A DNA stretch of 38,580 bases, from assembly GCA_001820175.1 (NCBI GenBank), contig MHOT01000016.1, positions 1-38,580 of the forward strand, in the 5' to 3' direction. The notes beneath the pieces were generated by a model that was not told the DNA's origin, did not search any database, and saw only the letters and a list, made by a program, of their open reading frames with translations. Shown piece after piece: positions 392 through 38,495 of this stretch; within the stretch, counting starts at the first letter, position 1, and the number at the start of each line of letters is the position of its first letter. The stretch comes from Candidatus Staskawiczbacteria bacterium RIFCSPHIGHO2_02_FULL_42_22. GTDB taxonomy: Bacteria; Patescibacteriota; Minisyncoccia; Minisyncoccales; Staskawiczbacteraceae. The translations under genes were made by a program, and so were the position numbers.

Positions 392-669
392 TAGACCTGT
401 TGCGTATTAAGGATTTACTGCAAATTGCATATTTCGGCCACAAATTTGCTATACCTAGTATAATGTGTCGCTCGTTCGGAAAGGAATAATTGCGATTTTT
501 CCTTTCCTCTCTCGCTTAGCACATTATAATTTTTCGGTCAAGATGTGGGTAAATTTGTAGCAACAAATTTCCCCATCTCCGGGCCCTCTAGGCAAGCCGA
601 AAAATTCTATCAAATTTCTGATCCAAAATCTTCAATTTTCGCGACAATCCTTAATACGCAACAGGTCTA
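392..669. repeat. palindromic element, family A copy 1 (278 bp, TAGACC...GGTCTA)
   Basis: The ends are long inverted repeats beginning TAGACCTGTTGCGTATTAAG and closing with its complement. The outer parts are nearly identical to the copy at 33072-33232. Relative to that copy, two extra hairpin blocks are inserted in the interior: about 456-530 (arms TATAATGTG / CACATTATA) and about 538-580 (arms GATGTGGG.AAATTTG / CAAATTT.CCCCATC). The element ends directly at the htrA stop codon. No ORF is seen inside. Confidence 0.85.
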
Positions 670-12091: not shown

Positions 12092-12198
12092 TTTAACTCG
12101 AATCCTGAATTTAGAAGCTAGAAGTTATAATTTAGAGTTTAGAGTTTAGAATTTAGAGTTTCACCCACAATCCAGATTCCAGATACAAGATTCCAGAT
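12092..12198. repeat. AT-rich simple repeat block between comEC and ftsZ
   Basis: Degenerate tandem units TTTAGAGTTTAGAG and CCAGATTCCAGAT occupy the gap. The vocabulary resembles that of 13143-13259 and 17930-18000. No gene is seen. Confidence 0.6.
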
Positions 12199-13119: not shown

Positions 13120-13142
13120 AACTTTTGTTTCGCAAAAGAAAT

Positions 13143-13259
13143 TCTAAATACTAATCTCTAAATTCTAAAACGTTTTAGGATTTAGAATTTAGGATTTAGA
13201 ATTTAGGATTTAGAATTTAGGATTTAGAATTTAGGATTTAGGATTTAGGATTTAGGATT
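13143..13259. repeat. tandem TTTAGGATTTAGAA repeats between ftsZ and ftsA
   Basis: About eight degenerate units of TTTAGGA / TTTAGAA run to the ftsA stop codon, preceded by the complementary words CTAAATTCTAAA, so part of the block can fold back. The last unit supplies sequence up to the ftsA stop. Confidence 0.75.
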
Positions 13260-14507
13260 TTACGGAATAAAGACCTTAAACATTTTCGAAACCCTAAAAA
13301 TCATTTTTTTAAGGGAGGCGAGAAAACCAGAAATACCATCGCCTTCCATGTCATCGATATTGCCACCCCCTAGCACCAACCCCGCAACCGTGGCCAGCGC
13401 CGGATCTTGGTCAATCCCCAAAATGCCCTTTAATATTCCCAGTTCGCACGGAAGACGCAATTGTTCCCTGGTTAATTCCCGAATATAGGGCAGTTTTGCG
13501 CCGCCTCCGGTAAGCACGATACCTCCGGGTAGCAATTCTTGGCGGCCAATGGATTTGAGTTCCTTTTGCATAACCCCCAGAATTTCAGATACCCTTGGCT
13601 CAATAATATCTACCAATCCCTTTTTGGTAAATGAAACTGTGGCATCTTTGCTAGAAACTTCAATATTCTTTTTTTCCGAGACGGCACGATTATTTTTTTT
13701 CTCTTTTTTATTTGCCAAAATCATGCAGGCACCGTATTGATTTTTAATCTCTTCGGCCGTGGCAAAATCGGTCCTGAGCCCAATGGCAATATCTTTGGTA
13801 ATATTGGCCGAGCCCAGAGGAAATACCGCCAAATGGGTTAAGTCGCCTTCTTCAAATACCGCCAAACTGGTAGTATCACCCCCAATATCAATCAATGCCA
13901 CCCCCAATTCTTTTTGCTGGGGGGTCAGTACGGCTTCCGCGGCCGCCAGCACCGAAGGCACCACGTCGTTAATTTGCAACTTTGCATTTAGCACCGCCTG
14001 GGTCAAATTGATAAAATATGACTGGAAATAACAAAGCAATATGACTTTCGCCTGCAGACGAACCCCGGTCAATCCTAACGGCTGCTTAATACCCTTTTGA
14101 TCATCAATAATAAACTCCCGGGCAAACACATCGAGTATTTCCTCGTTGGAGGGAATATTGATAGCTCGGGTGGCCTGCAGCACCCTTTCAATATCTTCCT
14201 CTGAAATCCGCTGATCGGCCCGCGAAACAGAAATGATTCCATCCGAAGGAGTTACGTACAGGTGGCTCCCCCCAATATTTACAAACGCCGAATTAATACG
14301 TATATTATTATCTCTTTCGATCCCCGATATCAACAGTTGAATATTCTTAGCGGTTTCCTCTATATTAGTTACCGCGCCTCGGCGCAAACCAAAAGAGGGT
14401 CGCTGAGCGCAGCACACCATTTCCCAATCCCTGCCTTTTTTTTGGGCAACCAGGGCTTTTATCGTACTGGTTCCAATATCTATTCCGGTGACAAAGTGAT
14501 CCCTCAT
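13260..14507 (-). CDS. ftsA: FtsA, actin-like membrane anchor of the division ring
   Basis: The 415-residue protein shows the actin-fold nucleotide motifs: GIDIGTSTIKAL near the N-terminus, LIDIGGDTTSLAVF near 205 and IVLTGGGAKLPYI near 345. The middle has the FtsA-specific 1C region (SHLYVTPSDGIISV, then REFIIDDQKG). The C-terminus (about 393-415, KKMIFRVSKMFKVFIP) is the amphipathic membrane-targeting helix that is known in the family to bind the inner membrane. A Lys/Asn-rich stretch near 270-290 looks like a lineage-specific loop. ftsZ follows after a repeat block, ybeY precedes. Confidence 0.95.
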   Translation of the reverse strand: MRDHFVTGIDIGTSTIKALVAQKKGRDWEMVCCAQRPSFGLRRGAVTNIEETAKNIQLLISGIERDNNIRINSAFVNIGGSHLYVTPSDGIISVSRADQRISEEDIERVLQATRAINIPSNEEILDVFAREFIIDDQKGIKQPLGLTGVRLQAKVILLCYFQSYFINLTQAVLNAKLQINDVVPSVLAAAEAVLTPQQKELGVALIDIGGDTTSLAVFEEGDLTHLAVFPLGSANITKDIAIGLRTDFATAEEIKNQYGACMILANKKEKKNNRAVSEKKNIEVSSKDATVSFTKKGLVDIIEPRVSEILGVMQKELKSIGRQELLPGGIVLTGGGAKLPYIRELTREQLRLPCELGILKGILGIDQDPALATVAGLVLGGGNIDDMEGDGISGFLASLKKMIFRVSKMFKVFIP

Positions 14508-17929: not shown

Positions 17930-18002
17930 TTTGTGAAATTCTAAATTCTAATTTCTAAATTCTAAAACGGTTTAGGATTTAGAGTTTAGGGTTTAGTATT
18001 TA
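17930..18002. repeat. AT-rich TTCTAAATTCTAA / TTTAGGATTTAG block
   Basis: Same words as 13143-13259, with a fold-back centred on AAACGGTTTAGG. No gene. Confidence 0.6.
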
Positions 18003-21796: not shown

Positions 21797-21985
21797 TAAC
21801 CCCTCACACTTCTCCAATCCTACACTCGTCATTGCGAGCCCTCGCAAGGGCGCGGCAATCTCCACCGTAGTTTTCTTACTATATTGACAAAGATTGCTTC
21901 GTCGCTGTGGCTCCTGAGTCGGGAATTTCTACTGCGGTAGAAATTCTCGCGACTTGACGCAATGACGGTGGGGTGTGAGGGGTTA
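21797..21985. repeat. TA-ACCCCTCACAC bounded element with CATTGCGAG-type core
   Basis: Outer arms TAACCCCTCACAC / GTGTGAGGGGTTA enclose an inner pair CGTCATTGCGAG / CGCAATGACG and a third pair GAATTTCTACTGC / GCGGTAGAAATTC. Three levels of inverted repeat are therefore nested. No ORF. Confidence 0.8.
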
Positions 21986-21996
21986 CAAATACACTG

Positions 21997-22118
21997 TAAG
22001 CCCTCACGCCCCCACACACCCATTCACCGTCATTGCGACAAAGCAATCTCGTTTCATGTAATTGCACTAGATTGCTTCGTCGCTGCGGCTCCTCGCAATG
22101 ACGGAGTGTGAGGGGTTA
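21997..22118. repeat. second TA-A(G/C)CCCTCAC bounded element
   Basis: Outer arms TAAGCCCTCACGC / GTGTGAGGGGTTA, inner arms CCGTCATTGCGA / TCGCAATGACGG and AAGCAATCT / AGATTGCTT. It lies 11 bases after the previous element in the same orientation. Confidence 0.8.
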
Positions 22119-27449: not shown

Positions 27450-29507
27450 ATGGCAACGCTTCTTATAGTGGAGTCACCCACGAAGGCAAAGACCCTGGGG
27501 AAATTTTTGGGGAAAAATTACAAAATAATGGCGTCTTTTGGGCATGTGCGGGATTTGCCGAAAACAAAACTGGGGGTTGATGTTGATAAAAATTTCGAAC
27601 CTACTTATATTATTCCCGCCAAGGCAAAAAAAGTGGTGGCCCAATTAAAAAAAGATGCTAAAGCCGCCGACGAGGTGATTTTGGCAACCGACCAAGACCG
27701 CGAGGGAGAGTCAATTTCCTGGCACCTGGCCCAAGCGCTAAAATTAAAAGATCCAAAAAGAATTGTATTCCACGAAATTACCAAAACAGCCATTGAGCAT
27801 GCCTTAAAAACTCCGGGCACCATTGATATGAACTTGGTGAATGCCCAGCAAGCCCGCCGAATTTTAGACCGGATTGTGGGCTACAAGCTATCTCCCTTTT
27901 TATGGAAAAAAGTGGCTAAAGGACTTTCGGCCGGACGCGTGCAATCGGTTGCAGTGCGACTGGTAGTAGAAAAAGAGCGGGAAATTCAAAAATTCATAGC
28001 CGTTGAATACTGGACGGTCGAAGCGCTGCTTCGACCGCAAATCCTAAATCCTAAATCCGAAATCCTAAAAGAATTTTCTGCATTTTTGATTAAAAAAAAT
28101 GGCGAAGTGATTGATAAATTAGAAATTAAAAATAAAGCAGAGGCCGACCAAATACTTTCGGCTCTTGAAAACGCAACTTACCAAATAGAAAAAATTACCA
28201 AAAAAGAAACGAAGCGAAATCCCCTGCCGCCATTTACTACCTCAACTCTGCAGCAAAGTGCAGCTAATAAATTTGGCTTTAGCGCTAAAATGACGATGGC
28301 CGTTGCCCAAAAATTATATGAACAAGGGCATATCACTTACCACCGAACCGACTCGCTGAATTTGTCGGAAATGTCACTGGTGGCCGCAAAATCCTATATT
28401 ACAAAAACGTTTGGCAACAATTATTTTAAAGGCACCGCATTTAAAGCCAAGGGAAATGCCCAAGAAGCACACGAAGCCATTCGCCCCACCTTTGCAGACA
28501 AAAATCCAGAGACAGCAAAAGGTGAATTAGAAGGCGCTCAACTGAAACTGTACACCTTGATTTGGCAGCGTTTTTTGGCATCGCAAATGACACCGGCTAT
28601 TTTTGATGCAACTTCCATTGAAATCAGCGCGAATGATTTCACTTTTGGCGCCAACGGCCAAATGCTAAAATTTGATGGATTCTTAAAAGTGTATCCCATG
28701 AAGTTTTCTGAAAATGAAATGCCGACATTGCAAGAAAAAGAAATTTTGGATTTGAGGGAACTAAAATCTACGCAACACTTTACCGAACCGCCGGCCCGTT
28801 ACAACGAGGCCTCACTTATTAAGGCCCTGGAAAAACATGGCATTGGGCGTCCGTCTACCTATGCACCGACGCTTTCTACCATACAAGATAGGCATTACAT
28901 AGAAAAGAATGATCAAAAACGGTTTTTCCCTACCGAAATGGGTTTTATTGTTAATGATATCTTAGTGGCAAATTTCCCGCAAATTGTGGACATTGATTTT
29001 ACGGCCAGCATGGAAAAGGAACTGGACGAAATTGCTGAAGGCAAAGATACTTGGGAAAAAACCATTAGGGATTTTTATGGCCCATTTGCCAAAAACTTAA
29101 AAGAAAAATATGAAGATGTCCCCAAAGAAAATTTGGACATAAAAACCGATAAAGTGTGTCCAAAGTGTCAAAAGCCCATGATAGAAAAAATGGGCAGATT
29201 TGGAAGATTTTACGCCTGCACGGGTTTTCCTGAATGTAAACATACCGAATCGGTAATAAGTGGCGCATCCCCCCAGGCGATAAAAATAGATATTACGTGC
29301 CCTAAATGTAAAACCGGCCAAATCGTTGCCAAAAAAACCAGAAAGGGTAAATTATTTTACGGCTGTGATAATTATCCTACGTGCGATTTTGCCGCCTGGG
29401 ATAAACCCATTGGCGAATTTTGCCCGACCTGCAAATCCATTCTGGTAGAAACCAAAGCCGGAAAAATAAAGTGCTCAAATAAAGAGTGTGATTTTAAGAA
29501 AGAGTAA
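27450..29507 (+). CDS. topA: DNA topoisomerase I with three C-terminal zinc ribbons
   Basis: The 685-residue type IA topoisomerase has the Toprim domain (VESPTKAKTLGKFL at the N-terminus, DQDREGE near 81-87), active-site Tyr297 in HITYHRTDS, and the conserved AHEAIRPT and GIGRPSTYAPT segments. Three C4 zinc ribbons follow (CPKC/C..FPEC, CPKC/CDNYPTC, CPTC/CSNKEC) from about residue 567. It relaxes negative supercoils. Residues about 195-207 (LRPQILNPKSEIL) are encoded by AAATCCTAAATCC repeats like those of the intergenic blocks, an in-frame insertion in a surface region. The gene lies six bases after the PRTase-like gene. Confidence 0.96.
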   Translation: MATLLIVESPTKAKTLGKFLGKNYKIMASFGHVRDLPKTKLGVDVDKNFEPTYIIPAKAKKVVAQLKKDAKAADEVILATDQDREGESISWHLAQALKLKDPKRIVFHEITKTAIEHALKTPGTIDMNLVNAQQARRILDRIVGYKLSPFLWKKVAKGLSAGRVQSVAVRLVVEKEREIQKFIAVEYWTVEALLRPQILNPKSEILKEFSAFLIKKNGEVIDKLEIKNKAEADQILSALENATYQIEKITKKETKRNPLPPFTTSTLQQSAANKFGFSAKMTMAVAQKLYEQGHITYHRTDSLNLSEMSLVAAKSYITKTFGNNYFKGTAFKAKGNAQEAHEAIRPTFADKNPETAKGELEGAQLKLYTLIWQRFLASQMTPAIFDATSIEISANDFTFGANGQMLKFDGFLKVYPMKFSENEMPTLQEKEILDLRELKSTQHFTEPPARYNEASLIKALEKHGIGRPSTYAPTLSTIQDRHYIEKNDQKRFFPTEMGFIVNDILVANFPQIVDIDFTASMEKELDEIAEGKDTWEKTIRDFYGPFAKNLKEKYEDVPKENLDIKTDKVCPKCQKPMIEKMGRFGRFYACTGFPECKHTESVISGASPQAIKIDITCPKCKTGQIVAKKTRKGKLFYGCDNYPTCDFAAWDKPIGEFCPTCKSILVETKAGKIKCSNKECDFKKE

Positions 29508-31220: not shown

Positions 31221-31340
31221 CGTCATTGCGAGCCACAGCGAAGCAATCTATAAAAATAACTAGATTACTTCGTCGCCTGCGGGCTCCAGAGACGGGAGTT
31301 CGGGCATAGCCCGCAACTCTCGCGTCTTGCCGCAATGACG
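31221..31340. repeat. CATTGCGAG-type inverted-repeat element upstream of the PAP2 gene
   Basis: CGTCATTGCGAG (left) and CGCAATGACG (right) bound the element, with inner arms AAGCAATCTA / TAGATTACTT and GCGGGCT / AGCCCGC around GAGTTCGGGC. Same class as 1-76 and 21797-22118 but without the TAACCCCTC outer frame. Confidence 0.75.
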
Positions 31341-31350
31341 ATGAACGAAA

Positions 31351-32595
31351 TTATTTTGGCAATGGAAACTTTTTACACAACACCGTAACTTCTTTTTTTA
31401 TTTTTTTTACATTCCCGGGGTTTTCAATCACTTCGTTAATCCATGCGGCAATCTGTTTCATCTCTTTTTCTTTCATGCCGCGAGTGGTAATGGCCGGGGT
31501 TCCCAGGCGCAATCCTGATGGCTTGAAGGGTGGAGCTGGGTCAAATGGGATTGAATTTTTATTCGTACTAATTCCTATGCTTTCCAGTAAATTTTGTGCA
31601 TCGGCTCCAAAAATATGTTTGTTACGCAAATCAATTAACAATAAATGGTTTTCGGTGCCACCGCTTATAATATCAAAACCGTATTTTTTTAATTCTTCAG
31701 CCAACATTTTGGCGTTTTTTACAATTTGGGCCGCATATTTTTTAAATGCCGGCGCACTGGCTTCTTTTAAACACACTGCAATAGCCGCAATGGCGTTTTC
31801 GTGCGGCCCGCCCTGCAATCCCGGAAAGATCGCTTTATCAATTTTTTTTGGTAACTCAGGGTCTTTTTCAATCCCCTTTTTGGTAACCATAATAATTCCC
31901 CCACGCGGTCCGCGCAATGTTTTATGGGTGGTAGTGGTAACAATATGGACAAAGGAAACTGGACTTAGGTGCACGCCTCCGACCACCAATCCCGCAATAT
32001 GGGCAATGTCGGCAGCCAAATACGCACCGACCGAATCAGCAATTTTTCCAAGACGTGCCCAATCAAAAATCCGAGGATACGCTGTTGCTCCCACCCAAAT
32101 AAGTTTTGGCTTATGTTCGCGAGCCATTTTTTCGAGATCATCGTAGCAAATAAGATGTGTTTTTTCATCTACGCCGTACTGAATAGGCTTAAAAAATTTA
32201 CCCGTAGCACTTACCTTCCATCCATGAGTTAAGTGGCCCCCCATAGGAAGAGCCATGCCCATCGTAACATCTCCGGGATCACACACTGCAACGTACACAG
32301 CCATATTTGCGGGACTCCCGGAATACGGCTGCACATTGGCATGTTCCACCTTAAATAACTTTTTTGCCCTTTCAATACAAAGTGTTTCCACTTTATCAAT
32401 AAACTGATTGCCCCCATAATACCGTTTTCCAGGATATCCTTCGGCGTATTTGTCGGTCAACAGCGACCCCAATGCCTCGCGCACCGCCGGCGAGCAATGA
32501 TTTTCCGACGGAATCATTTGCAGAGAATTTTTTTGCCGCTCTGTTTCCAGGTTAATTAAGCTATAAATTTGAGAGTCTTGTTTTTTTAATTTCAT
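31351..32595 (-). CDS. glyA: serine hydroxymethyltransferase
   Basis: From ATG at 32595 it is 414 residues, the usual GlyA length. The PLP lysine is Lys225 in THKTLRGPRGG. Other family signatures are MIPSENHCSPAVREALGS near the start, EGYPGKRYYGG and DIAHIAGLV. It converts serine and THF to glycine and methylene-THF. The longest frame starts with GTG at 32619; ATG is preferred because it aligns with the family start. The 5' side abuts the 450-bp palindrome (32624-33073), leaving almost no room for an upstream promoter outside it. Confidence 0.95.
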   Translation of the reverse strand: MKLKKQDSQIYSLINLETERQKNSLQMIPSENHCSPAVREALGSLLTDKYAEGYPGKRYYGGNQFIDKVETLCIERAKKLFKVEHANVQPYSGSPANMAVYVAVCDPGDVTMGMALPMGGHLTHGWKVSATGKFFKPIQYGVDEKTHLICYDDLEKMAREHKPKLIWVGATAYPRIFDWARLGKIADSVGAYLAADIAHIAGLVVGGVHLSPVSFVHIVTTTTHKTLRGPRGGIIMVTKKGIEKDPELPKKIDKAIFPGLQGGPHENAIAAIAVCLKEASAPAFKKYAAQIVKNAKMLAEELKKYGFDIISGGTENHLLLIDLRNKHIFGADAQNLLESIGISTNKNSIPFDPAPPFKPSGLRLGTPAITTRGMKEKEMKQIAAWINEVIENPGNVKKIKKEVTVLCKKFPLPK

Positions 32596-32623: not shown

Positions 32624-33073
32624 TACTGACCTTTCACACTTAACTTTACGCTATGATTGGTTATTTCATCCCAGCTTTGCGGTAAAAATACTGTGGTTTT
32701 TCTCTCCCTAGTGCCTCACTAACTTAATTTTGAACCCCTAGCAGCATTGCAATGGATTGTCTTCTAGGCGCGAGGAGCGGCGCGTACCCTCTGTGGTACG
32801 AGAGCGACGAGCAACAACGAAGACAATCCATTGCAATGCTGCCCTTCGGGAACCCAGAAATTACTTCATCTTCTTCTTTGCTCCTCCTCAAGGTGGCACA
32901 AGGCCACCTTTCGTCGTCGCGCATCGAAGCTAAAGCAATTTCTGGGTTCTAGGGGTTCAAAATTAAGTTAGTGAGGCACTAGCTCGCTAGGGTTCGAAAA
33001 ATCCTCGTATTTTTCCCGCAAAGCTGGGCGAAATACCTAAATCCTACATAAAGTTAAGTGTGAAAGGTCAGTA
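32624..33073. repeat. 450-bp hierarchical palindrome (outer element B)
   Basis: Outer arms begin TACTGACCTTTCACACTTAA and pair over 26 bases (right end 33073). Inside are matching arms with the words ATTTC.(T)CCCAGCTTTGCGG and AAAAATAC on both sides, then the fully bounded element C at 32709-32981. The right boundary TA is shared with the neighbouring family A element. No ORF of interest; small frames here are shadows of the palindrome. Confidence 0.85.
32709..32981. repeat. nested element C inside B, with two further palindromes
   Basis: Arms begin TAGTGCCTCACTAACTTAAT and pair over about 31 bases. Two side-by-side palindromes occupy the inside: 32741-32842 (arms GCAGCATTGCAATGGATTGT and complement) and about 32851-32949 (arms AACCCAGAAATT and complement). 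Each has its own inner hairpin: CGTAC/GTACG in the first and AAGGTGG/CCACCTT in the second. The GC content rises inward. Confidence 0.85.
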
Positions 33074-33232
33074 GACCTGTTGCGTATTAAGGATTTACTG
33101 CAAATTGCATATTTCGGCCACAAATTTGCTATAATTTTTCGGCGGGCCCTCTAGGCAAGCCGAAAAATTCTATCAAATTTCTGGCTCAAAATCTTCAATT
33201 TTCGCGACAATCCTTAATACGCAACAGGTCTA
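33072..33232. repeat. palindromic element, family A copy 2 (161 bp)
   Basis: Same ends and inner words as copy 1 at 392-669, without the two extra inserted hairpins of that copy. It shares its left TA with the right end of element B. Confidence 0.9.
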
Positions 33233-33269
33233 GTATAAAAAAAGTCCTGCATATGGTAGCAGAACTCTG

Positions 33270-34044: not shown

Positions 34045-34206
34045 TAGACCAACTTAACCAATTACTTCCTACTGCAAAACCATATTTTCGGCTGCAAATT
34101 TGCCATAATTTTTAGGCGGATACGCTGTATAGGCCTGAAAATTCTATCAAATTTTCGCTCGAAAATCTGGTTTTTCGTAACGGAAGTAATTGGTTAAGTT
34201 GGTCTA
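34045..34206. repeat. palindromic element, family A copy 3 (162 bp, diverged)
   Basis: Ends TAGACCAACTTAACCAATTA and complement share TAGACC...GGTCTA with the other copies; the interior words TTCGGC.GCAAATTTGC.ATAATTTTT and GAAAATTCTATCAAATTT are also shared. Arm sequence next to TAGACC has changed on both sides together. Confidence 0.85.
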
Positions 34207-34235: not shown

Positions 34236-34808
34236 TTATCTTATCTTTTTTTGCAACTTCGAAGTTATATTAATTATTTTTGATGGAACGCCTTTTTTCA
34301 TATCACCGCCATCAATGATTGCCTTGATGCTCGTTTCTTTGGAAAATATTTTTATAATATCTTTGATATTTTGCAAAGGCGGCTGACCCGATACATTTGA
34401 AGATGTCTGGACCAATGGCCGATCAATTTTTTTTAAAAGATTGCTTAAAAAAGGGTACCTAGGAATCCTTATCGCAACCGTTCTTTCATCAAGTCCATAT
34501 AATACGATACCTGGTTTTCTTTTTAAAATAAACGTATATTCCCCCGGCCAGAACTTCTTTAACATTTTTCGTTGCTGTTTATTTATTATAGCCATTTCTT
34601 CTGCCATGGCAATATTTCTAACAAAAAGTGAAAGGGGTTTTTTGCGCGGCCTTTTTTTTATTTTATAAATAGCGTCAACGGCCCTTTCGTTGGTCGCATC
34701 TGCCAAAAATCCGTATACGGTATCCGTTGGACAAATAACCACGCTGCCTTTTTTTAGGAGCGCGGCGGCTGCAGCCGCCGCGCGCAATGATGGCTTAATT
34801 ATTTTCAT
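34236..34808 (-). CDS. tsaC: TsaC/YrdC/Sua5-type threonylcarbamoyl-AMP synthase
   Basis: The 190-residue protein has the YrdC signature: CPTDTVYGF near 26-34, IYKIKKRPRKKPLSLFV (KxR and following) and the VRIPRYPFL segment, then SSNVSGQPP. It makes threonylcarbamoyl-AMP for the t6A modification of ANN-decoding tRNAs. The residues RAAAAAAALLKKG near the N-terminus are encoded over a perfect 24-bp palindrome (34760-34783). It overlaps the upstream nucleotidyltransferase gene by four bases, so the two are probably translationally coupled. Confidence 0.93.
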   Translation of the reverse strand: MKIIKPSLRAAAAAAALLKKGSVVICPTDTVYGFLADATNERAVDAIYKIKKRPRKKPLSLFVRNIAMAEEMAIINKQQRKMLKKFWPGEYTFILKRKPGIVLYGLDERTVAIRIPRYPFLSNLLKKIDRPLVQTSSNVSGQPPLQNIKDIIKIFSKETSIKAIIDGGDMKKGVPSKIINITSKLQKKIR

Positions 34809-35533
34809 TGTTTTAAAAGACCTGAAAATTTTTCGATATCTTCAGGACGACCAAAATCCATCCAGTTATCCTTTACCATTTTAACCTTGACTTTACCGTC
34901 TTTTGCTAGCAATGAAATCACATCAGTAATTTCGTATTCTCCGCGAGGGGATTTTTCAATCAGTGGCAATTTTTCGAAAACATCAGAAGTGAATTTGTAT
35001 AAACTGGTATTGATTAAGTCCCCTACAAATTCTTTTGGTTTTTCTATAATTTCTTTTAAAAATTCTCCGTCAGTTAGCAATACTCCAAACTTTTCAGGGT
35101 GATCATTTTTTAAACCGGCAACGTAGCAATATTGATCATCAATGTTCATTAATCTTAAATCTTCAACCGAATAAAAATTATCTCCTACCAGCGATATAAA
35201 TTGATCATTGCCGACAAAATCCCTTACGCACTTTAAGGGACAAGCCGTACCATATTCTTTTTCTTTGGGACCCAGCACTTCAAACTGACTAACTATATCA
35301 ATACTACAATCATGATCTTTTTTATAACCATCCACAAATTCCTTCATTAAATCTTGCTTGTATCCTACTACCAGCATGATTTGCTGATATCCGGCATCCA
35401 AAATATTATCTAACAAATATGCCAAAAACGGCCGCTGATTTATTTCTATTAAATGCTTTGGTTTATCTTTTGAAAGTTCCTGCATGCGCGTCCCTGGCCC
35501 AGCCGCAGAAATAACCACTTTTTTAATTGGCAT
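34805..35533 (-). CDS. sugar-1-phosphate nucleotidyltransferase-like protein
   Basis: From ATG at 35533 it is 242 residues. The nucleotide site GPGTRM and the following KPKHLIEINQRP are the NTP_transferase signature, and SLVGDNFYS supplies the metal-binding Asp. IEKPKEFVGDLINTSLYKF is the usual sugar-site block. It would activate a sugar phosphate with dTTP, UTP or CTP. The longer frame (35548, GTG) only adds five residues. Overlaps tsaC by four bases. It could provide the donor for the glycosyltransferases at 2018 and 7697; that is inference. Confidence 0.85.
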   Translation of the reverse strand: MPIKKVVISAAGPGTRMQELSKDKPKHLIEINQRPFLAYLLDNILDAGYQQIMLVVGYKQDLMKEFVDGYKKDHDCSIDIVSQFEVLGPKEKEYGTACPLKCVRDFVGNDQFISLVGDNFYSVEDLRLMNIDDQYCYVAGLKNDHPEKFGVLLTDGEFLKEIIEKPKEFVGDLINTSLYKFTSDVFEKLPLIEKSPRGEYEITDVISLLAKDGKVKVKMVKDNWMDFGRPEDIEKFSGLLKQ

Positions 35534-35548
35534 AGCCCACAGCGACAC

Positions 35549-35630: not shown

Positions 35631-38495
35631 TTATAATACTATATTAATCAATTTATCTGGTACGAAAATGATTTTTTTTACCTCTTTCCCGGCTACCCAG
35701 GGTTTTATTTTTTCGCCCCGCAGCACCATTTCTTCGACTTCCTTTTGATCGATACCATGTACTACTTCTATTTTGTCGCGCATTTTGCCATTAATTTGTA
35801 TCACTAAAACTACGTTTTGGCTTGGCAATAATTTTTGGTTGTACACCGGCCACGGTTGCAGATGAATCGACGTTTTATTTTTCAACACGTTCCGCCAAAG
35901 TTCTTCAGTGATATGTGGAGCAAACGGAGCCAAAAGTTTAAGAAAATCTTCGTACTGCGATTTTGAAATTTCATGACCCTCAAGTTCGTTTAATAATTTC
36001 ATTAAGTCGCTTACGCCCGTGTTGAAATTCAAATCACTGATGTCAAAACCAATTCCTTTATCATTTGCCTTAATGTATTTATTGATGATGCCCGCCGCCG
36101 CGATATTTTTTTTGGTCTTGGGGCTATAGCGGCCAACAAAATTCCAAACGCGGTTTAAAAACCGATACACTCCAGTGATGCCGCCGGGGTTCCACGAGCC
36201 ACCCTGTAAATAAGGTCCCATGAAGGCCAAATACATCCTAACCGCATCAGCCCCGTATTTTTTTACTTCACTATCGGGATCAATGACATTTCCGCGCGAC
36301 TTGGACATTTTCTGGTTATCGGAACCAAGAATGATTCCCCGGTTGCGCCGGTTTAAAAATGGTTCGTCAAAATCAATATATCCGAGGCGCTTTAATGCTT
36401 TGGTAAAAAATCGGGAATACAAAAGGTGCATGGTGGTGTGTTCCGCTCCGCCAAGATAGGAAAACACCGGCAACCATTTTTTAATCTTTTCTTTTGAAGC
36501 GAATATCTTTTTATTAGTTGGATCAGTATAACGCATAAAATACCACGAAGAATCAACAAACGTGTCCATGGTATCGGTTTCCCGCTCTGCCGCGCCTTTA
36601 CATGTTGGACATGTTGTTTTGAGCCACTTTTCGGCTTTAGTCAAAGGGGACTTCCCGCCATCAGTTGGCTTAAAATCTTTAAGGGGCGGCAGCTCAACCG
36701 GCAACTCTTTTTCGTTGACTGGCTGATAGCCACAGGTTACACAATGCACCATAGGTATTGGCACACCCCAGTACCGTTGGCGCGACAGTATCCAATCACG
36801 GAGACGATAGGTTTTTTTAAAATCAGCCATTCCTTTTAATTTCAATTCTTCCACAATTTTTTTCTTGGCTATCATTGAATCCATGCCATTGAATTTCCCG
36901 GAATGAATTAAAACTCCTTCGCTCTCAAAAGCGTGGGCCTCATTAAAAAACCGATCCAGCCAGATTTCGTATTCACTGCACTTAATGTTTTTATCTTTTT
37001 GTAATTCCTGCCACGAAAGCCAAACCGGTTCGTGTTTTTCTTTTTCATCAGCAGAAATTTCTTGGCGGTCTTCATTTTCTAGTTCAAACACCAAACAGGT
37101 AAACAGAGCATTGCGATTTTCATCTTTATGGTTGGCATAAAAATGCGACTGGACCGGTCCACCCAGGGTTTTTATATATCTTACATTTTTATATCCGCTT
37201 TCTTCTAAAATTTCCCGCTTGGCAGCAAGCATACCATCTTCGCCTTCCTCAACACCGCCGGTGATAAAGGTTGTCCAGGGGAATTTTTTCCACTTCAAAC
37301 ACAATACTTTTTTATCTTTTGAATTAATCACAATAGCTTGAATGGCATTTCGTTCTATCGTTTTTTTATCGGCCCGCGGCGGATCGTGCTGGTCAACCAC
37401 TTTTGGAATAATGACCTCCTTTATCGGCAACTGGTATTTTTTGGCAAACTCAAAATCCCGTTTGTCGTGTGCGGGGACAAACATTACGGCTCCGGTCCCG
37501 TAACTTCCTAACACATAATCGCCCACCCAAACAGGAATTTTTTCGTTATTAGCGGGGTTGGCGGCAAAAATTCCGGCGTCCACACCGGTTTTTTCTTTGG
37601 CCTCCTGCCGTTCAAGTTCTCGTTTTGCCAAACTTCTCTTGATATAATCTTGCGTATGATCACCTGCCTGCCAACCGGCACTTACCCAAGTTTGCGCAAG
37701 TTCGGGAGAAACTACCAGAGCAGTAACACCAAAAACCGTATCGGATCTTGTTGTGAAAGTTTCTATATATTTTGAAAATTGAAAATTGAAAATTGAAAAT
37801 TTTATAATCGCTCCTTCCGAGCGGCCAACCCAATTTTTCTGCCCAAGTTTTGCGGACTCCTGCCAATCGAGAGCATCAAGTCCGTCAATAAGCTCGTCTT
37901 TAAATTCGGTAATTTTAAACATCCATTGGGCCAGGTCTTTTTGCATGACTTCAGATTGGCATCGGTCACATTTGCCGCCAACCACCTGCTCGTTAGCCAG
38001 GACTGTTTTGTCTTTTGGACACCAATTCACTTTTGTCGTGGCGCGATAGGCCAGGCCTGCTTGGCAGAACTTAATGAACATCCATTGGGTCCAGCGGTAA
38101 TAATCGGGGTCTATGGTACTCACCTTGCGCGACCAATCAAACATCGCCCCCATGGACTTTAATTGGCGCGTCATGTAAGCAATATTTTGCCTGGTCCACT
38201 TTTCAGGATGAATATCGTGTTTTATGGCGGCGTTTTCGGCCGGCAAACCGAAGGCATCAAAACCCGTGGGATAGAGCACATTATACCCTTTCATGCGAAG
38301 GTAGCGGGCTTTAATGTCGGGCAAGGCAAAAGCGTACCAGTGACCAATGTGAAGGTTTCCCGATGGATAGGCAAATTCGGTAAGGAGCATTACATTCTTT
38401 TTTCTGGCAACCACATTCTTGGTTGCAAAAAGTTTCTTATGCTCCCAGTATTTCTGCCACTTTTTTTCAATTTTTTGAGGGTTGTATTTTTGCAT
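35631..38495 (-). CDS. leuS: leucyl-tRNA synthetase with a Nudix domain inside the editing domain
   Basis: The 954-residue protein has HIGH at 49-52, KMSKS at 729-733, a zinc-type CPKD...CDRC pair near 159-179, the CP1 editing domain (FTTRSDT near 247, the editing Asp in FVPAHDKRDFEF near 345, VLIHSGKFNGM near 528-538) and the C-terminal anticodon and tail domains. Between VIIPK (about 365) and AHAFESEGVLI (about 521), residues about 380-515 form a full Nudix hydrolase domain with an intact box GGVEEGE...REILEESGY at 413-434. Usual bacterial LeuRS is about 860 residues. In addition residues 232-242 (KFSIFNFQFSK) come from GAAAATT repeats. The editing-site Pro of TTRPDT is Ser here. Confidence 0.96.
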   Translation of the reverse strand: MQKYNPQKIEKKWQKYWEHKKLFATKNVVARKKNVMLLTEFAYPSGNLHIGHWYAFALPDIKARYLRMKGYNVLYPTGFDAFGLPAENAAIKHDIHPEKWTRQNIAYMTRQLKSMGAMFDWSRKVSTIDPDYYRWTQWMFIKFCQAGLAYRATTKVNWCPKDKTVLANEQVVGGKCDRCQSEVMQKDLAQWMFKITEFKDELIDGLDALDWQESAKLGQKNWVGRSEGAIIKFSIFNFQFSKYIETFTTRSDTVFGVTALVVSPELAQTWVSAGWQAGDHTQDYIKRSLAKRELERQEAKEKTGVDAGIFAANPANNEKIPVWVGDYVLGSYGTGAVMFVPAHDKRDFEFAKKYQLPIKEVIIPKVVDQHDPPRADKKTIERNAIQAIVINSKDKKVLCLKWKKFPWTTFITGGVEEGEDGMLAAKREILEESGYKNVRYIKTLGGPVQSHFYANHKDENRNALFTCLVFELENEDRQEISADEKEKHEPVWLSWQELQKDKNIKCSEYEIWLDRFFNEAHAFESEGVLIHSGKFNGMDSMIAKKKIVEELKLKGMADFKKTYRLRDWILSRQRYWGVPIPMVHCVTCGYQPVNEKELPVELPPLKDFKPTDGGKSPLTKAEKWLKTTCPTCKGAAERETDTMDTFVDSSWYFMRYTDPTNKKIFASKEKIKKWLPVFSYLGGAEHTTMHLLYSRFFTKALKRLGYIDFDEPFLNRRNRGIILGSDNQKMSKSRGNVIDPDSEVKKYGADAVRMYLAFMGPYLQGGSWNPGGITGVYRFLNRVWNFVGRYSPKTKKNIAAAGIINKYIKANDKGIGFDISDLNFNTGVSDLMKLLNELEGHEISKSQYEDFLKLLAPFAPHITEELWRNVLKNKTSIHLQPWPVYNQKLLPSQNVVLVIQINGKMRDKIEVVHGIDQKEVEEMVLRGEKIKPWVAGKEVKKIIFVPDKLINIVL

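Follow-up and report, generated by a model that had tools for sequence, protein, structure and literature searches.

Two additional hairpins in a putative IS5-type miniature element of Candidatus Staskawiczbacteria

How does one copy of a palindromic repeat come to hold two hairpins that a nearly identical sister copy lacks? The question is raised by a genome of the tiny, uncultured Candidatus Staskawiczbacteria (G000; 821 kb in 30 contigs, ~95% complete), from which we analyzed one stretch of 38,580 nucleotides, contig C16, referred to below as the window. Among named genomes and records, a sequence pattern (D-type) for the hairpin family of the window matched only Candidatus Staskawiczbacteria. 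Copy numbers reported for G000 come from searches in which only some candidates were scored, and they are lower bounds.

Two copies of one palindromic element

A first-pass annotation of the window had described a long and a short copy of one palindromic element (Table 1) as agreeing almost base for base, except for two extra inverted-repeat blocks in the long copy at about 456-530 and 538-580. Both parts of this description hold, with adjusted boundaries. When positions 450-524 (block A) and 538-579 (block B) are removed, the long copy is reduced to 159 bases, 156 of which are identical to the short copy; the three mismatches are adjacent bases. Because the TATA at the junction is ambiguous, block A can equally be placed at 454-528.

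Terminal inverted repeats of 23 bp close the outer stem in both copies, in agreement with the annotation that the host hairpin stays closed despite the inserts. Compared with dinucleotide shuffles, the single-strand folds gave z scores of −11.7 for the long copy and −13.0 for the short copy. Block A forms a side branch off the left stem arm of the long copy, and block B adjoins the apex. The insertions had both been annotated at the loop, a placement that comes close for block B and is wrong for block A.

The long copy is located between the end of a plus-strand open reading frame (ORF) and the 3′ end of a minus-strand htrA-like gene. The short copy adjoins a big nested palindrome with TACTGACCTTTCACACTTAAC ends (32624-33073). 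Other features of the window include GTTTCCGAACAGCGCC at 70-96, which is like the terminal repeat that encloses a decayed transposase copy elsewhere in the genome (G000:C3:1125; L255); dispersed repeats of the ATTTAGAATTTAGG type, lying in either orientation (12093-12175, 13138-13260, 17935-18002, and 28039-28070); and a leucyl-tRNA synthetase gene (35631-38495, minus strand) with a NUDIX domain inserted beside the editing domain according to Pfam.

Table 1. Positions of the element copies, their parts, and related features in the window
Feature	Position	Strand	Remarks
Long copy, AGACCTGTTGCGTATTAAGG element	393..668	+	276 bp; ATT duplication 390-392 / 669-671
Left terminal inverted repeat, long copy	393..415	+	23-bp outer stem
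Block A	450..524	+	75 bp, equally 454-528; R1 covariance model match 449-530; stem TATAATGTG/CACATTATA; inner hairpin framed by motifs TCGCTCGTTCGG and CCTCTCTCGCTTAG
Block B	538..579	+	42-bp hairpin TCAAGATGTGGG..CCCCATCTC; ~42-nt mobile hairpin family, R2 model class
Right terminal inverted repeat, long copy	646..668	-	
B-class hairpin in CGTCATTGCG...CGACGAAGCAATCT REP-like palindrome	21917..21957	-	
B-class hairpin in CGTCATTGCG...CGACGAAGTAATCT REP-like palindrome	31290..31330	-	
Short copy, without A and B	33073..33231	+	159 bp; AGT duplication 33070-33072 / 33232-33234
Third relative with the same palindromic core	34046..34205	+	Other terminal repeat, AGACCAACTTAACCAATTACTTCC; ATT on both sides
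Nucleotidyltransferase gene	34805..35548	-	Empty ortholog of a G013 gene with an in-frame 42-bp B-class hairpin

The host element and its candidate transposase

BLAST searches of G000 located the host element in at least ~40 places, and members were found in most congeners as well. Perfect 3-bp duplications flank the AGACC...GGTCT element in 38 of 45 aligned copies, 34 being of the form ANT, against an average of 12 and a maximum of 21 in a control with mispaired flanks. In the congener G010, perfect 22-bp repeats (TAGACCTGTCCCTAAATAACTT) surround a DDE_Tnp_4, IS5-like transposase gene, with ACT on both sides of this insertion sequence (IS), and G000 contains miniature inverted-repeat elements (MITEs) in which the TAGACCTGTCCCTAAATAACTT terminus of the G010 IS is combined with the core of the window elements. 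An autonomous partner with matching ends exists for the GTCCCTAAATAA subtype of terminal repeat (L256, in a congener). The window copies carry the other subtype, with GTTGCGTATTAAGG ends (the GTTGCGTATTAAG subtype, whose ends are also given as AGACCTGTTGCG). No autonomous IS with exactly the GTTGCGTATTAAGG ends of the window copies was found in the 11 genomes searched, and the sole DDE_Tnp_1 match in G000 is decayed and has different ends.

Based on the 3-bp duplications and on the autonomous IS5-like element of a congener, which has one of the two terminal-repeat subtypes, the sequence evidence identifies the host element as a MITE, probably of IS5 type. The GTTGCG subtype carried by the window copies is probably a substrate of the same type of enzyme, given the AGACCTG start, the ANT duplication, and the core that the subtypes have in common. 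In its terminal inverted repeats, 3-bp duplications, lack of coding sequence, and ends that recur, for one subtype, on the autonomous IS of a congener, the element resembles bacterial MITEs of the IS5 family. It differs from them in that its core is common to IS5-like and IS982-like shells and carries exchangeable hairpin inserts.

The evidence for the second kind of shell is that the core of the window elements, up to 93% identical, also lies within shells ending GTGAATTACGAAA(T/C)(G/C)CC. Transposase genes with GTGAATTACGAAA ends scored best against the IS982 model, slightly under its curated cut-off. On contig C10 of G000, two copies that match exactly, as do their near flanks, lie 542 bp apart at the contig end (L005, 308-467 and 850-1009), representing either a local duplication or an assembly artifact. 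Nothing usable emerged from the literature, whether on patescibacterial MITEs or on inserts in ERIC.

Blocks A and B in other hosts

The first-pass annotation had proposed that the blocks be sought as independent elements, and A-class and B-class units indeed turned up in other species as well as in unrelated hosts. Besides the AGACC elements, A and B occur in GTGAATTACGAAA.. shells, in palindromes with ATGCGAATCTCGTTTGGCAATCG ends, and in REP-like palindromes. When 15 genomes were searched with a covariance model of the B class, ~80 places were detected, distributed over 10 of the genomes. In this class, 99.4% of cells are paired (85% after shuffling), compensatory changes are present, and the internal loop has an almost invariant GCGA. 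In the unrelated palindromic element with ATGCGAATCTCGTTTGGCAATCG ends, block B is again flanked by GG and CG close to the apex, and at one locus (L293) one B-class hairpin is nested in another. The window itself contains two REP-like palindromes (21827-22103 and 31260-31400) of the form CGTCATTGCG...GAAGCAATCT (CGTCATTGCG...AGGAGCC), with one B-class hairpin each.

B-class hairpins were also detected in the open frames of six genes of relatives. Four of these genes were assigned by Pfam (NTP_transferase, glycosyltransferase, HhH-GPD, and a CysRS-like gene with DALR_2) and two by inspection only (trigger-factor-like and HhH/lamin-tail). In both cases that were compared with an empty ortholog, the insert adds 14 residues (42 bp). 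The nucleotidyltransferase encoded in the window reads EKP-KEFVG where its G013 counterpart reads EKP-GREFWQSQKLSRPET-EFVG, a net difference of 42 bp with no duplication. In a MutY-like gene, G002 and G000 have a short palindrome at the site; in G007 a B-class hairpin sits inside this palindrome, for a net gain of 14 residues over G002. Across 35 distinct B-class sites, flank complementarity averaged 6.14, versus 5.13 with mispaired flanks, and none of 500 permutations reached as high a value. Because this excess is modest, we do not claim apex targeting as a rule; few B-class sites are clear palindrome apices.

We infer that the B class moves by site- or structure-guided insertion of a folded strand by an enzyme acting in trans. 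Two candidates for the spread of the hairpin were rejected. A Y1/RAYT transposase (PF01797), present in 12 of 17 genomes searched, was rejected as the mover in G000 for lack of any PF01797 match in this ~95% complete assembly, and viral spread was rejected given that the exact pattern has no match in IMG/VR. A GTAG tag, as in GTAG/CGTC REPs, precedes only a minority of the 64 listed B-class copies.

Several known systems bear comparison with the B class. Rickettsia palindromic elements (RPE) are palindromic units of ~150 bp that lie in frame in protein genes and are compatible with translation (PMC10969869). B-class hairpins likewise occur in frame in protein genes, but they measure ~42 nt, have a constant GCGA internal loop, and lie mostly inside other palindromic repeats; no sequence relation is implied. 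REPs are found inside longer palindromes in the GTAG-15 family of A. variabilis and the CGTC-1 dimers of H. neapolitanus (Di Nocera 2013, PMC3733652). B-class hairpins also lie regularly within longer palindromes, but as single asymmetric hairpins without a consistent GTAG/CGTC tag, and here empty host palindromes are plentiful. The GC clusters of yeast mitochondria include GC42, palindromic mobile units of ~42 nt that merge and shuffle and are associated with AG duplications (PMC4478555). The B class matches them in unit size and in merging into and shuffling with other palindromic units; in contrast, it is bacterial, shows no duplication around the 42-nt unit, and also occurs in frame in genes. 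The small dispersed repeats of cyanobacteria, as they are cited in PMC3116915, provide a further parallel. In the literature searched, we found no description of the combination seen here, with exact empty sites in one lineage.

Block A belongs to a different class. Its covariance model matched in 15 of 19 genomes of the family, including 37 places in G017. At most of the 20 G017 places fetched, an ORF of at least 50 codons starts on the same strand between −5 and +31 nt from the end of the A unit, and the start codon often falls within the conserved ...ATAATTATG end of the unit. The genes that follow A-class units in relatives include, by inspection of translations, rpmG, rplC, rpsS, thyA, folA, and tmk. 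A-class units contain a TATAAT-like box and covarying stems: 18 of 21 pairs have changed on both sides, and 93% of cells are paired (76% when shuffled), in an alignment that was fitted to the model and so favors this result. Neither the window element nor eight A-class loci gave a gathering-level match in Rfam. In other genera of the family, A-class leader hairpins precede many housekeeping genes (L166-L203, in G017, G018, and G030) and possibly represent a family-wide promoter/leader unit outside Rfam.

In two other G000 copies of the host element (L085 and L204), an A-class unit lies inside the terminal repeat, after an ATA that is repeated at the end of the unit. Taken together, the placement at gene starts, the paired changes, and the entry into these terminal repeats make block A resemble a promoter/leader hairpin that either gained mobility or was captured.

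Reshuffling of the blocks and the history of the long copy

The two copies in the window had been presented as a direct before/after pair. The pair is real; it is not isolated, having dozens of relatives, ~10 of them with both blocks. The AGACC copies of G000 include copies without inserts, with A only (n = 2), with B only (n = 2), and with A and B (~10), some with more inserts; these further inserts, C and D, occupy other fixed positions. On a core tree built without the inserts, which is approximate given a short core with recombination, carriers of A and B do not group together. This tree and the four A/B states led us to reject a single-lineage history of the blocks. The long copy need not descend from the short one by two insertions.

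Thirteen carriers with shells up to 30 nt different from the shell of the long copy have a block B that is identical or differs by 1 nt, and block A of the long copy is identical to block A of two copies with other shells. Given this identity, the sequences favor exchange, or a recent common composite, over fresh insertion as the way in which the long copy obtained its blocks. Considering that all A/B combinations exist, that A is identical in other shells, and that carriers are ungrouped on the shell tree, transfer from another copy is no less likely than fresh insertion as the origin of the blocks in this particular copy. A cleaner one-step pair is provided by G000:C13:56890 and G000:C13:17178, which differ by one terminal base and the 42-bp block B, present in 17178.

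Could recombination then explain everything, with blocks that are old, pass among sister copies by gene conversion or unequal exchange, and are not independently mobile? We judge this unlikely. It accords with the full set of A/B combinations and the scattered carriers. It also accords with the fixed core positions of A and B, which are seen again where the core lies in a second shell; indeed, the core positions of A and B coincide in most hosts, a pattern explained equally well by repeated insertion and by gene conversion. Insert C, which some copies have in the left arm and another has at the mirror-image position in the right arm, suggests template switching from arm to arm and thus fits as well. 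Evidence against recombination alone comes from B-class hairpins whose flanks are unrelated and which lie in protein genes, REP-like palindromes, and another B-class hairpin, the insertions in the nucleotidyltransferase and MutY-like genes among them, and from A-class units that stand alone before genes across the family. In the cleaner one-step pair, moreover, the converted tract would need to be very short.

It is also rather improbable that a function maintains the composite hairpins, be it termination between convergent genes, mRNA processing, or service as a mobile promoter/leader. The position of the long copy between two gene ends is compatible with such a role, as are the location of A-class units near gene starts in relatives, their TATAAT-like box, and their covarying stems. 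However, the MITE copies, spread over many unrelated sites and flanked by 3-bp duplications, behave like mobile DNA. In addition, block A of the long copy is aimed at the 3′ end of the opposite, htrA-like gene rather than at a start codon, and is therefore more likely a passenger.

The order of gain can be read from other genomes. Aligned copies of the host element from five congeners (G008, G009, G010, G011, and G012) lack A and B, and block A at high identity was absent from the nine congeners searched; the long form is therefore best regarded as derived and the blocks as gains over a shorter form, as the annotation had proposed. The reverse, an ancestral long form from which the short copy lost A and B through two precise deletions, is very improbable: although both blocks can be removed exactly and the 4-nt direct repeat TATA at the edges of A could mediate slippage, no direct repeat flanks B, A- and B-class units stand alone elsewhere, and the congener copies are empty, so that the annotation's own counter-reading, in which the blocks are found nowhere else and the short form arose by deletion, fails.

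As a whole, we consider probable an account that combines an IS5-mobilized MITE, foreign A and B hairpin units in its core, and reshuffling by recombination. An IS5-type DDE transposase, acting in trans, would mobilize the MITE, recognizing the AGACCTG... ends and generating a 3-bp, mostly ANT, duplication. The composite version seen in the long copy would have formed when the palindromic core took up two foreign hairpin units. Block B would be one of the ~42-nt hairpins that have spread in the genus, chiefly within palindromes and at times in frame within genes; block A would be one of the ~75-bp promoter/leader-like hairpins that directly precede start codons in relatives. After uptake, the composite would still transpose as a single MITE, and it is found at ~10 loci, nearly all with their own duplications. 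Recombination among copies would go on reshuffling blocks, cores, and terminal repeats.

A further proposal is held only tentatively, and we would sooner doubt than assert it: that dedicated machinery of Staskawiczbacteria inserts the ~42-nt hairpins with their constant GCGA internal loop, without target duplication, into palindromes and in frame into housekeeping genes, and that a mobile promoter/5′ leader unit both precedes housekeeping genes and rides MITEs.

Since the MITE bears two hairpins that are also found independently, small mobile hairpins appear to be in the course of being built into mobile hairpins. The resulting complex elements would be assembled from interchangeable parts, namely, the ends of different IS families, a common core, and hairpin inserts. 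Both palindromes and genes of one lineage offer empty and filled sites, exact to the base, for a mobile hairpin of very small size, and this makes the insertion and spread of tiny palindromic repeats such as RPE, REPs, and GC clusters directly testable. The A class suggests that housekeeping genes are preceded by a leader hairpin not yet described, and the B-class hairpins are a source of 14-residue protein insertions in organisms with genomes of ~0.8 Mb.
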